From positions 1 through 7,844 of the forward strand of contig JAFWOP010000163.1 of NCBI GenBank assembly GCA_017545365.1: a stretch of DNA of 7,844 nt, in the 5' to 3' direction. Positions within the stretch are counted from its first letter, which is position 1. Each line of letters begins with the position of its first letter. This DNA is from Bacteroidales bacterium (GTDB lineage: Bacteria; Bacteroidota; Bacteroidia; Bacteroidales; P3). A program made the translations under genes and the position numbers. Positions 3,379-7,844 of this stretch are shown in pieces. The notes beneath the pieces are model-generated. The model did no database searches. It had not been told where the DNA came from and worked only from the letters and a program-made list of their open reading frames with translations.

Positions 3379-3462
3379 TTCTAAACTCTAATCTCTCAAC
3401 TCTAAACTCTCAACTCTCAACCCTCAACTCTAATCTCTCAACCCTCAACTCTCAACCCTACC
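3379..3462. repeat. Intergenic period-7 tandem repeat, about 12 units
   Basis: Heptamers on the plus strand read CTCTCAA, CCCTCAA, CTCTAAA and CTCTAAT, ending in a degenerate ccctacc. In another register these are CTCAACT/CTCAACC, close to the units translated at 732-815. The tract lies in the mltD-rel gap, ending 4 nt before the rel Shine-Dalgarno, and would be in the rel 5' leader or the intercistronic mRNA. It has no complementary arm, so it should be largely unstructured. Confidence 0.88.
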
Positions 3463-3484: not shown

Positions 3485-3611
3485 AACAACGGATTTTACG
3501 GATTACACGGATTATACGGATTGTAATGGATTTCACCGATTTCTTCCAGATTCGATGGGGAGATGATAAATAATCCGTGAAAATCCGTGAAATCAGTTTT
3601 AATCCGTTGTT
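3485..3611. repeat. Intergenic two-armed element of period-9 units (inverted repeat)
   Basis: The left arm (3485-3522) carries four consecutive GGATT-ending units, 9 nt apart: aacaacggatt, ttacggatt, acacggatt, atacggatt. Weaker copies reach about 3541. The right arm (about 3572-3611) carries the reverse complement: aatccgtga twice, then aatcagtttt and aatccgttgtt. The outermost 11 nt (3485-3495 and 3601-3611) are perfectly complementary. A transcript of the mltD-rel gap could form an imperfect hairpin here. No T-tract follows on the minus strand, so a terminator role is not supported. Confidence 0.8.
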
Positions 3612-5027: not shown

Positions 5028-5217
5028 TCTAAAGTCTACGGTCTAAAGTCTACGGTCTAAAGTCTCTGGTCTAAAGTCTACGGTCTAAAGTCTCTGGTCT
5101 AAAGTCTACGGTCTAACGTCTAAAGTCTAAAGTCTCTGGTCTAAAGTCTAAAGTCTAACGTCTAACGTCTAAAGTCTATAGTCTAAAGTCTAAGGTCAAA
5201 ATCTAAGTTCTAAAGTC
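5028..5217. repeat. Intergenic period-7 tandem repeat, about 27 units, filling the whole gap
   Basis: Plus-strand heptamers TCTAAAG, TCTACGG, TCTCTGG and TCTAACG run almost perfectly from 5028 to 5195. One 6-nt unit (5196-5201) breaks the phase before the tract ends at the DUF5683 stop. The first part shows a higher-order 14-nt and partly 28-nt alternation (TCTAAAG+TCTACGG, TCTAAAG+TCTCTGG), suggesting stepwise duplication of larger blocks. The tract is exactly the space between the DUF5683 stop and the mltD start codon, so it forms the whole untranslated leader available to mltD. It contains no complementary arm and no clear promoter motif. Confidence 0.93.
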
Positions 5218-6039
5218 TCAGAAGTTTATGCTACAGTTCACCCCCAGAGAGTTGGCATAGAGCGGGTTCTGTGACTGTCCGTTGTTAATGACCGTCGGCG
5301 TTACTTTCAGGCTCAAGTCCTTGGATATGTCGAATTGCGACAACTCGGCATCGACGTAGGCATCGATGACTGAGAAGGCGTAGATGCCCAGCATGACGAA
5401 GAAGCTGAGGTCGCGCCAACGGCGATACTTGTCTTTACGTTTCTTGAACAAGTCCTTATAGCGGTCCTCGTTTTCCTTGGTTATCTGTCGTCCCAGGTGC
5501 AGGAACTTGTTATAGCTCGCCGTGCCAGGGTCATTGTCCATGATGTCGAGGTAGGCCTGTGAATAGTCCTTGTACATGGTGTTATTCCACGTCATGGCAT
5601 AGATGCAGCCGAGGAATCCTCCGTAGACGATGGGCAGCTTCCAGTACTTGCGGTTGTATATTTGACCGCCACCGGGGATGACCAGTGCCAGCCACAGCGC
5701 ACGCTTCGGGTTGGGAGCCCACTTGCTCCAGTCGCGTTTCTGGGTCACGGGAGCCACTTGCTCAGCCATGAGCGAAGCACCCTGCTCCATGAGGTCTATC
5801 ACCACTGCCGAGTCCGTCTGCTGCCTGATGGTTTCCAGTTCAGTCTCCAAGTCGGGAATGGTATCGGGTTCGAGGTCGGGGATGTCATCGGGAATCGACG
5901 TCTGCACATCGACCACCGTGTCGGGCACCTCCACCTGCGCCAGGGTAGCGACAGGCACTAACTGAAAGGTGATAACCGTCGTTATCACCATCAGCAGTCG
6001 TCTGACTTGCGCATACACCGTGTCACACATTCTGTTCAT
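5218..6039 (-). CDS. DUF5683-domain envelope protein with signal peptide
   Basis: This 273-aa protein is of unknown function; its family is recognised by the core NPKRALWLALVIPGGGQIYN at 110-129 followed by RKYWKLPIVYGG and NNTMYKDYSQAY. The N-terminus has positive residues and a hydrophobic run (about 11-34, LLMVITTVITFQLVPVATLA), a probable signal peptide or anchor. An acidic region with repeated P-D-L-E motifs follows (about 39-70). Hydrophobic segments at about 113-123, 135-150 and 211-228 suggest membrane insertion; a charged K/R-rich stretch (about 196-210) lies between. I chose ATG 6039 because the frame's upstream extension to 6123 starts with TTG, lies in AT-rich DNA and overlaps the promoter motif; ATG 6030 is also possible. 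It is the first gene of the DUF5683-mltD-rel cluster, suggesting an envelope role, which is inference only. Confidence 0.85.
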   Translation of the reverse strand: MNRMCDTVYAQVRRLLMVITTVITFQLVPVATLAQVEVPDTVVDVQTSIPDDIPDLEPDTIPDLETELETIRQQTDSAVVIDLMEQGASLMAEQVAPVTQKRDWSKWAPNPKRALWLALVIPGGGQIYNRKYWKLPIVYGGFLGCIYAMTWNNTMYKDYSQAYLDIMDNDPGTASYNKFLHLGRQITKENEDRYKDLFKKRKDKYRRWRDLSFFVMLGIYAFSVIDAYVDAELSQFDISKDLSLKVTPTVINNGQSQNPLYANSLGVNCSINF

Positions 6040-6050
6040 GCTTGGAGGTG

Positions 6051-6058
6051 CAAAATTA
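6051..6058 (-). promoter_or_regulatory. Bacteroidetes-type -7 element upstream of the DUF5683 gene
   Basis: On the minus strand TAATTTTG matches the Bacteroidetes -7 consensus TAnnTTTG exactly. A possible -33 TTG lies about 17 nt upstream, slightly short of the usual spacing. With the G 11 nt before ATG 6039, transcription would start only a few bases before the start codon, giving a near-leaderless mRNA for the cluster's first gene. An AT-rich chance match cannot be excluded. Confidence 0.5.
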
Positions 6059-6143
6059 CTAAATTTCCCCCAAACCAATGAATATATTTTCAAAATCTTG
6101 TCAGCATTTAAGACTTTTTTCAAAAACTGTCAAGATTCTTGTC

Positions 6144-6204
6144 TACGGAGGTTAGGAGGAAAGGAGGGTTGCGCGCAAATTCTCCTTATCTCCATATCTC
6201 CGTA
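6144..6204. repeat. Two-armed palindromic element of period-8 units
   Basis: The left arm is tacggag, gttaggag, gaaaggag; the right arm is its imperfect complement, ctcctta, tctccata, tctccgta, around a GCGCGC core at 6171-6176. The outer 7 bp (6144-6150 and 6198-6204) pair perfectly, and GGAG/CTCC blocks pair at 8-nt intervals with mismatched 4-nt spacers. It lies about 85 nt upstream of the probable DUF5683 promoter and resembles the element at 6213-6310 in design but not in exact sequence. Confidence 0.75.
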
Positions 6205-6212
6205 AAATATAT

Positions 6213-6310
6213 TGTCTAAGGAATTTAGGAGTTTTTCCCTGCGGGGCTTTTGTCTAAGGAATTTAGGAAGCTACGCGCAGCCATTCCTTGATTCCTAAAT
6301 TCCTTAGACA
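6213..6310 (+). repeat. Composite palindromic element, left copy (inverted relative to 7600-7707)
   Basis: The 18-mer tgtctaaggaatttagga occurs directly at 6213-6230 and 6251-6268, and inverted at 6293-6310. Two GC cores are present: ccctgcgggg at 6237-6246 and gctacgcgcagc at 6270-6281. Bases 6251-6269 and 6292-6310 form a perfect 19-bp stem; the loop holds an extra 8-nt unit found on one arm only. The element begins 11 nt downstream of the stop of the BspA-like gene. Its reverse complement matches 7600-7707 over nearly its full length, apart from substitutions and insertions of whole 8-nt units. Confidence 0.88.
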
Positions 6311-6321
6311 TAATTTTATCC

Positions 6322-7617
6322 TTAGGGCACCACGACCTTCTTGCCTCCGTAGATGTAGAGTCCCTTCTTCGTCGGCTTCCCGTCGAGGCGCACGCCGTCG
6401 AGGGTGTACCACGCGCCGGCAGAATCCGTTAAATCCGTGTAATCTGTGGTCGTGATTCCCTGTGCCTCGCCATCGAAGTTGAGCACGAACTGGCGGGCAT
6501 GGGTGGTGCCGAGGTTGAAGTAGGCGCGCTGTGCGCCGATCTTCGCGCCGCTCTCGGGATAGTAGAGCGTGTTGCCCGCGCCGAGGAAGAGGATGCTCGG
6601 GTTCTTGTCCGTGAAGGTGATGCTCTGGTAGGTGCCCTTGAAGCTGCCGTCGGTGAAGGTGACGGGCAGGGGAGTCGGGGCGGTGATGGTGACGCCCTTG
6701 AAGGTCGGGCTCACGATGTCGTTTTCGTCGATGCCCATTTGCGATGCCTGTGCCTTGTAGGTCTCCAGGCTTTTGCTGAACACGTATATCTTGCGTCCGC
6801 TGGTGGCATTGCGAGAGAACGCATTGCTGCCGTAGGTGGTCAGCGACGGGGCATAGATGGTGACGCTGGTCAAGTCTATGCAAGAAGAGAAGGCATATTC
6901 GCCGATGCTCGTCACGCTGGCGGAAATCTCGACACTGCTCAAACTATAACAACTCTGGAAGGCATATTCGCCGATGCTCGTCACGCTGGCAGGGATTTCG
7001 ATGCTGGTTAAGCCAGTACAACCATCAAAGGCATATTTGCCGATGGTCGTCACGCCGTCAGGAATGACAGTATTCTTACATCCCTGAATGAGCTTGTTAG
7101 TTGCAGTCTCGATAAGGGCGTTACAGTCGTTGCCTTTGTAAATCTTGACGGTGGTCTGTGGCGTTTTACCGTTGCTGCCCGTCCATCCTGTGAAACGACA
7201 ATCCTCTTTGGTGGGGTTGTTCAGCGTAAAGGTCGGGGTCTCTATATTATAAGAGGTGGGGTTAGATGTAGCCACGCTGCCGCCGTTGAGGTTGTAGGTG
7301 ATGGTGTAGGTGATGGGCGTCCACTTGGCGTAGAGGACGACGGTGCCGCCATCGGTAGTGGTGAGGTTGCTAACGCTCTGCTTGTCGCTGTAAACCACGT
7401 TGCCATTCTCCGACTTTGCCCAGCCTGCGAAGGTGTAGCCCGTGCGGTCGAAGGCGTTGGCGGTGAGGTTCTGCGCTGTGCCGTAGGTGAAGGTCTGGTC
7501 AGTCATCTGGCCATCGCCGCAGGTGCCGCCGTTGCCGTTGAAATGCTCGGTGTAGGTGTTGTATGCCAGTTCGGCAGTGAGGGTCACGTCGCCGTCGCCG
7601 AGGAGTTTAGGAGTCAA
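6322..7617 (-). CDS. BspA-like leucine-rich repeat surface protein, N-terminally truncated
   Basis: The frame is open for about 431 codons but has no signal peptide and no ATG; the first usable start is TTG 7617, and an in-frame TAG lies at 7641-7639. Residues 9-16 (GDVTLTAE) look like the end of a B-repeat cut off upstream. Two InlB B-repeat/Flg_new-type units follow (about 24-99 and 103-161; NGNGG, FAGWA, FTGWTG). Then come three 23-residue BspA-type leucine-rich repeats (about 186-255; IPASVTSIGEYAF), a beta-rich region, and a C-terminal tail (AWYTLDGVRLDGKPTKKGL) common on secreted Prevotella proteins. By family such proteins bind host or matrix targets at the cell surface. The first codons (7600-7617) lie inside a palindromic element, so this looks like the surviving 3' part of a disrupted gene. 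Expression and export are doubtful; calling it a pseudogene is equally defensible. Confidence 0.75.
   Translation of the reverse strand: MTPKLLGDGDVTLTAELAYNTYTEHFNGNGGTCGDGQMTDQTFTYGTAQNLTANAFDRTGYTFAGWAKSENGNVVYSDKQSVSNLTTTDGGTVVLYAKWTPITYTITYNLNGGSVATSNPTSYNIETPTFTLNNPTKEDCRFTGWTGSNGKTPQTTVKIYKGNDCNALIETATNKLIQGCKNTVIPDGVTTIGKYAFDGCTGLTSIEIPASVTSIGEYAFQSCYSLSSVEISASVTSIGEYAFSSCIDLTSVTIYAPSLTTYGSNAFSRNATSGRKIYVFSKSLETYKAQASQMGIDENDIVSPTFKGVTITAPTPLPVTFTDGSFKGTYQSITFTDKNPSILFLGAGNTLYYPESGAKIGAQRAYFNLGTTHARQFVLNFDGEAQGITTTDYTDLTDSAGAWYTLDGVRLDGKPTKKGLYIYGGKKVVVP
6423..6449 (-). repeat. In-frame period-9 repeat in the BspA-like gene
   Basis: Three 9-nt units (coding strand ccacagatt, acacggatt, taacggatt) encode T-T-D-Y-T-D-L-T-D at about residues 389-397, between the beta-rich region and the C-terminal tail. 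The 13-mer gattacacggatt is identical to bases 3501-3513 in the intergenic period-9 element, tying a coding linker to the intergenic repeat family. Confidence 0.7.
6853..7062 (-). repeat. 69-bp direct repeats encoding BspA-type leucine-rich repeats
   Basis: The plus-strand block aaggcatatt...gccgatg...cgtcacg recurs at 6890, 6959 and 7028, a strict 69-bp period equal to 23 residues. The 6890 and 6959 copies are nearly identical over about 30 nt. This is the DNA of the LRR_5-like array, and could be a substrate for unit gain or loss. Confidence 0.8.
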
Positions 7618-7707
7618 GGAGTGGCTGCGCGCAGCTTCCTAAATTCCTAAATTCCTTAGACAAATGCCACGCAGGGAAAAACTCCCAAACTCCTAAGCTC
7701 CTTAGAG
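7600..7707 (-). repeat. Composite palindromic element, right copy (inverted relative to 6213-6310)
   Basis: Read on the minus strand this matches the left element in order: ctctaagg, octamers, ccctgcgtgg core (plus strand 7667-7676), the 18-mer tgtctaaggaatttagga (plus strand 7645-7662 in complement), gctgcgcgcagc (7624-7635, a perfect 12-nt palindrome), then more octamers. It carries two extra 8-nt units relative to the left copy, one in each half. The inner end, near 7600, runs into the BspA-like reading frame. Confidence 0.85.
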
Positions 7708-7844
7708 AACAAAGCTCGTACTGAAAAATCTTTACATTGACCCCTCTGAGACTCCGATTTTTTGAATGAGGTCCTTGGGGGGATGGCGTATGAGCTAGTT
7801 TTGACAGGGGGCGTTTCCGCGTTTTCCACGCTACTGCTCAGCTA
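7708..7844. other. Unassigned sequence upstream of the BspA-like fragment
   Basis: The minus strand has stops in all three frames near the window end, so the missing BspA N-terminus is not encoded here. On the plus strand a short frame is open from 7750, with an ATG at 7783 (MAYELVLTGGVSAF...), and runs off the window; it is too short to judge and I do not recognise it. The sequence lacks the short-period repeats found to its left and could be the end of another mobile or regulatory element. Confidence 0.3.

Follow-up and report, generated by a model that had tools for sequence, protein, structure and literature searches.

The window, by which we mean the whole stretch of 7,844 nucleotides analysed here, corresponds to positions 43925-51768 of contig C67 in a 4.75-Mb Bacteroidales genome of 135 contigs (G000), and the contig ends 18 bases past it. 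Near this end the window holds a fragment of a BspA-like open reading frame (ORF) of a broken surface-protein gene on the minus strand (6322..7617; Pfam List_Bact_rpt and LRR_5), which is flanked by two copies of a palindromic element made of octamers such as tctaagga, copy 1 on the plus strand at 6206..6317 and copy 2, inverted, on the minus strand at 7595..7715. Both are probably members of a dispersed palindromic repeat of a Prevotella lineage that spreads as a non-autonomous mobile element, and on the best reading of the data such palindromic, non-autonomous mobile repeats form a new family specific to this lineage.

The palindrome pair at the BspA-like fragment

In an earlier note on this DNA the pair had been aligned by eye and described as two inverted copies with the same order of parts, differing by exactly one octamer at two places. 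Both observations could be reproduced. Each copy consists of octamers, the core ccctgcgggg, octamers, the core gctrcgcgcagc and reverse-complement octamers, and in a global alignment of copy 1 with the complement of 7595-7715 there are only two internal gaps, each exactly 8 nt long and both in copy 1 (an additional 7-nt gap is only the ragged end). The alignment score is 125.8, compared to a mean of 13.8 and a maximum of 32.2 for 500 dinucleotide shuffles, and a repeat search of the window returned the same two inverted blocks, one of 54 nt (91%) and one of 48 nt (92%). Copy 2 extends to about 7709 rather than to 7707 as noted. Folded as single-stranded DNA, copy 1 reaches z = -6.3 with 0 of 200 shuffles being as good, and copy 2 reaches z = -2.2 with 6 of 200.

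Copy 1 starts with two arms of two octamers each (tctaagga atttagga in both), of which arm 1 at 6215..6230, for which fuller copies have three octamers, precedes core 1 (ccctgcgggg, 6237..6246) and arm 2 at 6253..6268 precedes core 2, the tip of the hairpin (gctacgcgcagc, 6270..6281), all on the plus strand. Arm 3 (6285..6308, minus strand) holds three octamers, the reverse complement of tctaagga atttagga atcaagga, and is followed by an outer octamer ctaagga at 6318..6326 on the minus strand. The taa of this outer octamer serves as stop codon for the BspA-like ORF, in a context that reads ccc TAA gga on the minus strand. In copy 2 all three arms have three octamers, with core 2 at 7624-7635, core 1 at 7667-7676 and the outermost arm at 7683-7706, and its innermost arm opens with an altered octamer, gccgagga, at the gene boundary. 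The same 3, 3, 3 composition is found in two further composite copies of the genome (L002 and L003), compared to 2, 2, 3 in copy 1, and because of these fuller copies we regard copy 1 as a deviating short variant. Copy 1 is adjoined by a third palindrome (type B, 6142..6204) of the same build with other octamers (tctacgga ggttagga ggaaagga, tip ttgcgcgcaa at 6169-6178, reverse-complement octamers at 6181-6204; folding z -3.8), which has kin in L007, L010, L011, L040 and L002. Some copies (L009, L011, L012 and L003) carry the insert cgctcggcccaaagggacgcttgccaaagcaag or its complement within an octamer arm.

The TTG start and the first codons (MTPKLL) of the BspA-like ORF are read from the octamers of copy 2. 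The ORF appears to have no 5' end of its own, and copy 2 probably truncated the gene. The protein clusters P0001, P0002 and P0004 start identically with MTPKLLGDGDVT and P0003 deviates exactly there; as P0001 has the same kind of entry as the protein of the window itself and P0002 and P0004 come from another source, the junction between octamers and gene seems to be common to other strains.

Copy number, distribution and octamer count

Using window 6200-6325 as query we obtained 79 matching stretches in the own genome at E values up to 10, a palindrome often being counted on both strands. Nineteen of them, on 12 contigs and including the two window copies, fall below 1e-9. Many matches lie near contig ends, copies also occur singly, and the cores are common to the dispersed copies. 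At E values up to 0.001 the query was matched in 6 of 60 relatives, the own genome counted, all of them belonging to the same genus. A pattern describing one arm (tctaagga-nTnnagga-nTnnagga, up to one mismatch) was found in 83 of 299 sampled same-genus genomes including the own one, in some of them once only and with a mismatch, and for the reversed pattern as control there were 8 matches in the own genome, with 15 more for the remaining 298 together. When 84,980 species were scanned for the whole palindrome with three octamers in both arms (3+3), 28 stretches matched. They belong to 13 genomes, each of which is titled Bacteroidales, Bacteroidaceae, Prevotellaceae or Prevotella, some titles naming sheep, goat or red deer. 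The element is therefore present elsewhere in its own genome and in relatives, and its absence from both had been named in the earlier note as an outcome that would speak against it. Carriage by phages or plasmids was considered and rejected, as the whole-palindrome pattern gave 0 stretches in viral contigs and a blastn comparison of window 6120-6330 with plasmids gave no match. In Rfam nothing exceeded the gathering threshold (the best of 4 matches had 25 bits compared to a threshold of 100), and among the literature matches listed we found no description of the octamer palindrome.

A typical member is an imperfect, non-coding hairpin of about 55-100 bp (range about 55-126 bp), in which an arm made of tctaagga and two nnnnagga units is followed by a variable tip and the mirrored arm. 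The mirrored octamer arms form terminal inverted repeats, as in miniature inverted-repeat transposable elements (MITEs), and an extra ctaagga is often seen by eye about 9-11 nt outside the arm. In stretches fetched regardless of octamer number, arms starting with tctaagga or tctacgga could match with any number of units from two upward. Exactly three octamers were present in 43 of 48 such arms (29/34 in G000, 12/12 in G025 and 2/2 in G018) and two in the remaining 5. Among distinct palindromes 36 of 40 are 3+3, a number biased by the many loci that had been fetched with patterns demanding three octamers in one arm or in both; the four exceptions are all from G000, where 12 of 16 are 3+3. As single arms with four octamers were seen as well (L275, L292, L294 and L301), three octamers per arm is a strong rule and not a law. 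The idea that the element grows and shrinks by 8-nt steps consequently describes the window pair and does not hold as a general rule.

The outer octamer and the letters gga were fixed by the search pattern and the remaining letters vary. Among the matches listed the first letter is typical for the genome, namely T in G151, A in both G160 and G196, and G in G027. The tips vary in sequence and fold slightly better than shuffles, with a mean z of -1.2 (n=44, some redundant) and -0.9 (n=18). As tandem runs of 2-4 units the arms are below the length and regularity required in the scan for short-period arrays. Of 12 matches to the cores only 3 lie with an array by a criterion of 32 nt, which under-detects arms of 24 nt.

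At octamer positions 3-4 both letters are identical between the two arms in 6 of 72 pairs, compared to 14.9 ± 3.0 in shuffled pairs (P = 0.0004). The corresponding values are 3/24 versus 7.5 ± 1.9 for G000 alone (P = 0.008), 3/48 versus 7.4 ± 2.3 without G000 (P = 0.03) and 2/42 versus 5.3 ± 2.0 for one element per family without G000 (P = 0.08). Further 18 elements gave 5/36 versus 6.6 ± 2.2, which is not significant (P = 0.31), and a single-position identity of 17/72 versus 29.5 ± 4.0 (P = 0.0004) with a null pooled over species. Since related copies inflate all of these statistics, we keep the arm mismatch as a suggestion only.

Stop codons, gene tails and in-frame insertions

The last ~110 nt of the BspA-like ORF were matched at 19 places in the own genome, of which 10 have a readable frame, 8 have none and 1 has an empty frame. 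Six of the 10 readable tails end with VVVP or VVIP followed by TAAGGA, and five of these six run straight into octamer arrays, the sixth into another palindrome. The other four end with K or R in another stop context and show no octamers within 75 nt (Fisher P = 0.005). Four of the six TAAGGA tails (L361, L362, L365 and L368, with 66, 121, 43 and 99 codons between stops) have no long ORF ahead of them, and for this reason the tail was apparently copied along with the element. These genomes do not use TAAGGA as their usual stop context, since it is found at 5 of 231 TAA stops in G000 and 2 of 89 in G025; of these rare stops 3 of 5 in G000 and 2 of 2 in G025 run into octamers.

The element is also found inside a gene. 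In G025 a GH97 glycosidase gene holds an octamer palindrome in frame, resulting in a net difference of 108 nt to G013 and 99 nt to G020, and the palindrome is absent from this gene in 7 of 7 aligned relatives (20 loci fetched). In the own genome glpK contains an in-frame inverted heptamer array around gctgcgcatagc (L137 6833-6925, contig C122), which adds a net 36-48 nt to the gene in comparison with all 6 of the 6 relatives aligned (20 loci fetched). With glpK as query nine further matches to its peptide were obtained in the own genome, each confined to the heptamer part and eight of them in stop-free open frames, and these are candidates for the same insertion.

The position of the elements relative to genes, called crudely as open frames of 90 amino acids or more, bears on a different explanation, according to which the palindrome is retained behind stop codons as a functional 3'-end element, with an RNA hairpin that either acts as transcription terminator or shields the end of the mRNA, and also provides the UAAGGA stop context. 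Of 27 elements 13 lie in co-directional, 8 in convergent and 1 in divergent gaps, 3 lie inside ORFs and 2 at their edges, and a second set of 18 is distributed over 7 co-directional, 4 convergent and 1 divergent gaps, 1 ORF and 5 edges. In the pooled sets convergent gaps are frequent (12/34 elements versus 56/347 background gaps, Fisher P = 0.009) and divergent gaps scarce (2/34 versus 87/347, P = 0.0098). Together with a stop codon at most 31 nt away in 12 of 17 intergenic elements from genomes other than G000, the stop given by the outer octamer in the six tails and the slightly better folding of the tips, this would fit a role at the 3' end. However, elements of G000 and of the second set lie less consistently near stops, an avoidance of promoter regions is equally expected of an insertion that is merely tolerated, insertions within genes occur, and the arm pattern was not found in 216 of the 299 same-genus genomes. 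In addition, a T-tract follows the hairpin on either strand in only 2 of 44 distinct elements, too few for an intrinsic terminator, compared to 27 of 44 with the opposite arrangement (A-run after or T-run before the hairpin), and 0 terminator-like sites were found in window 6050-7844. We therefore consider a 3'-end function as the origin of this pattern to be rather doubtful.

The locus itself is rearranged. An ORF with a ParB-like end, which we take to be parB, is found within ~170 nt upstream of the DUF5683 gene in 19 of 20 readable relatives (21 fetched), and in the twentieth a similar ORF lies at a distance of 406 nt. The parB gene of the window genome is located on contig C122, apart from DUF5683, with a glycerol kinase gene (Pfam FGGY) downstream and presumably a malate dehydrogenase gene in between. 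As the parB-DUF5683 neighbourhood of the relatives is split here, the window represents a rearranged junction, and because of this rearrangement the element may have a recombination role at this locus. The inversion boundary raised in the earlier note, taken here as a site-specific inversion or recombination boundary that switches the BspA-like segment, could likewise account for the broken neighbourhood and for an inverted pair around 1.3 kb. It is nevertheless the least probable of the explanations considered, since no inverted orientation was observed, with no DNA of other strains at hand for comparison, the junction MTPKLLGDGDVT between element and gene recurs unchanged in the protein clusters P0001, P0002 and P0004, copies also occur singly elsewhere, and the parB side of the break (C122 8175-8197) holds no element, the nearest cluster being 2.7 kb off; an inversion as the cause of the parB break was dropped for this last reason.

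The pair does flank the BspA-like segment as had been noted, but this framing is perhaps incidental, as the right-hand copy abuts the left end of a separate MITE-like repeat (7720..7844, plus strand), which has the terminal tgctgaaaaatctttacatt and 35 matches in the genome. Five full copies measured (L037, L041, L054, L055 and L059) are 564-647 bp long, with imperfectly inverted ends (tgctgaaaaatctttacatt / aatgtaaag...ttcagca) and, by eye, internal tandem units of ~22-25 nt; many matches lie near contig ends.

The window contains further short-period repeats. A heptamer array (tctaaag/tctacgg/tctctgg, 5028-5218) spans the entire gap between the DUF5683 stop and the gene that follows, another intergenic gap holds arrays of heptamers (tctaaac/tctcaac, 3380-3460) and nonamers (aatccgtga, 3489-3600), and heptamer and nonamer arrays within a malectin-domain ORF (733-816 and 554-613) translate as SNLKPQT- and NGSNGV-type repeats.

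Origin of the element and its relation to known repeats

Hairpin arms that vary by whole short units are known from the tRNA-Leu intron of Nostoc, where the P6b stem carries heptanucleotide repeats; these occupy one intron locus, while the octamer element is dispersed. By its build the element resembles MITEs and Rickettsia palindromic elements (RPEs) in general kind, without the specific tags of RPEs or REPs. RPEs are described as short palindromic repeats of ~150 bp that sit in frame within protein-coding genes. Ten RPE families are distinguished, and all of them have an ORF coding for a conserved peptide (PMC10969869), while the RPEs of R. conorii are described as having CGTC at one end (PMC3733652). 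The octamer palindrome is also found in frame within an ORF, as in the GH97 gene, and has a heptamer relative in glpK, but its arms are built from 8-nt units, its host belongs to another phylum and its ends read tctaagga / tccttaga and not CGTC (in the elements printed, the outer octamer being part of the search pattern). Among Bacteroidales MITEs, BrickBuilt of Porphyromonas gingivalis is similarly multi-copy and lineage-limited with inverted ends and internal tandem units; its units are reported to be 23 nt long with small inverted ends apart from them, and the element to be 'always located intergenically' (PMC4596501), whereas in the octamer element the 8-nt units themselves form the inverted ends and a copy is found within a gene. 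BrickBuilt is closer in build to the MITE-like repeat at 7720-7844 than to the octamer element.

REP and REPIN sequences are likewise dispersed hairpins, mostly intergenic (PMC3733652). An origin as a REP/REPIN element moved by a RAYT (Y1 tyrosine transposase) would agree with an element that is palindromic, dispersed and non-coding, with the presence of Y1 transposases in the genus, and with a RAYT-like Y1 transposase of the own genome at C37:7392 that is flanked by palindromes. These palindromes (L172) belong to a different family, gccccgaaggggc / gacgggggt, and the feet of the octamer hairpin read tctaagga and not GTAG, with the same restriction to the printed elements and the search pattern as above, its arms being made of octamer units. 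No tctamgga octamer array lies within ~1.5 kb of 10 + 30 Y1 loci, where we found two single tctamgga words and two weak AGGA look-alikes. Y1 matches are present in 8 of 12 octamer-bearing compared to 7 of 12 octamer-free genomes (P = 1), and with six more genomes in 12 of 16 compared to 8 of 14 (P = 0.44). As the Y1_Tnp searches and flank checks gave no link, this origin was rejected and appears very unlikely to us.

Growth by slippage is a further explanation. In it the tandem arrays of 7-, 8- and 9-nt units in the genus expand by polymerase slippage and palindromes result where complementary arrays meet, without transposition of a unit. Slippage has been proposed for the heptamer direct repeats (TAACTGA) of Beggiatoaceae, cyanobacteria and some Bacteroidetes, which are long simple sequence repeats of fixed short period, intergenic and in part touching stop or start codons; in the main genome 169 sets are direct and a single repeat is indirect (PMC4679880). 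The octamer element shares the fixed short period, the intergenic location and the position at stop codons, and its own genome is rich in such arrays, with 202/16/56 arrays of period 7/8/9 in 728 kb, period 7 being the commonest of all, compared to 1/0/0 in 120 kb of G024. Inverted arrays of other periods are present there as well, namely 10 pairs of period 7 (6 of them in crude ORFs), 4 pairs of period 9, 5 of period 10 and 2 of period 11. In contrast to the long direct arrays, the octamer element has a tip between two mirrored arms, each mostly made of three degenerate octamers. Slippage leaves unexplained why the arms keep so closely to three units, why the cores are conserved across dispersed copies, and how tails are carried with the element and a whole palindrome came to lie within the GH97 gene, and we regard it as unlikely.

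Since the copies occupy unrelated sites and share common cores, are restricted to one lineage as far as scanned, have an empty site and are copied together with gene tails, we favour the non-autonomous mobile palindrome. The suggestion of such an element in the earlier note thus receives support from its multiple copies, its lineage restriction, the in-frame insertion with empty sites and the carried tails, which falls short of proof. Several observations weigh against it. No transposase with octamer ends was found in the Y1 family, which alone was searched. The occupied and empty octamer sites amount to one case, and neither the flanks nor the GH97 empty site gave a consistent target-site duplication by eye; a TA duplication from ctaagga...tccttag is possible. 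Part of the copy number represents segmental duplication, as G151 copies lie inside larger repeats and those of G160 and RUG606 have common loops or flanks. In G196, G027 and G023 the arms were fetched mostly as single arms, many beside other short arrays, which fits array growth as well as transposition. The gene calls are crude, the Fisher tests of gap orientation include related and thus non-independent copies, and a stop codon within 31 nt was found in just 1 of 5 G000 cases and, for the second set, in 3 of 12, a number that rises to 8 of 12 if 45 nt are allowed.

As a non-autonomous mobile palindrome the element would move as a unit, with the octamers acting as terminal inverted repeat and probably as the sequence that is recognised, and an enzyme would act on it in trans. 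The spread would probably proceed through an intermediate, with an enzyme of the host or of a transposon recognising its arms. If the element lands behind a gene, its outer ctaagga could provide the stop codon, and if it lands in frame within a gene it could be read through.

In G196 (L263, L265, L266 and L270) nested palindromes of 285-448 bp are found, in which the octamer arms form one layer and, together with further short arrays, stand in mirror image on both sides of inner inverted stretches, for example gattccgcgcgcggaatc. From these and from the wealth of short-period arrays in the genome the tentative idea arises, which we hold to be possible without expecting it, that a broader class of mobile palindromes, so far undescribed, has arms of counted 7-, 8- or 9-nt units, with the octamer palindrome as one of its dialects. 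Taken as one joint proposal, this would include interchangeable GC-rich tips of the gctgcgcgcagc kind, common to octamer and heptamer arms, elements that insert into one another's centres, and two mismatched positions per unit giving a hairpin with a rhythm of 6 paired and 2 unpaired positions that is read by an enzyme.

If mobile, the element would be a lineage-specific palindromic element for which no link to RAYTs was found. Annotation pipelines gain a repeat to mask, and as many copies lie near contig ends the element may help to break the assemblies of the genomes that carry it. The near-fixed arm of three units would point to a recogniser that counts, and a mobile element of this kind could provide its hosts with stop codons and extend enzymes, the GH97 glycosidase for instance, by in-frame segments.

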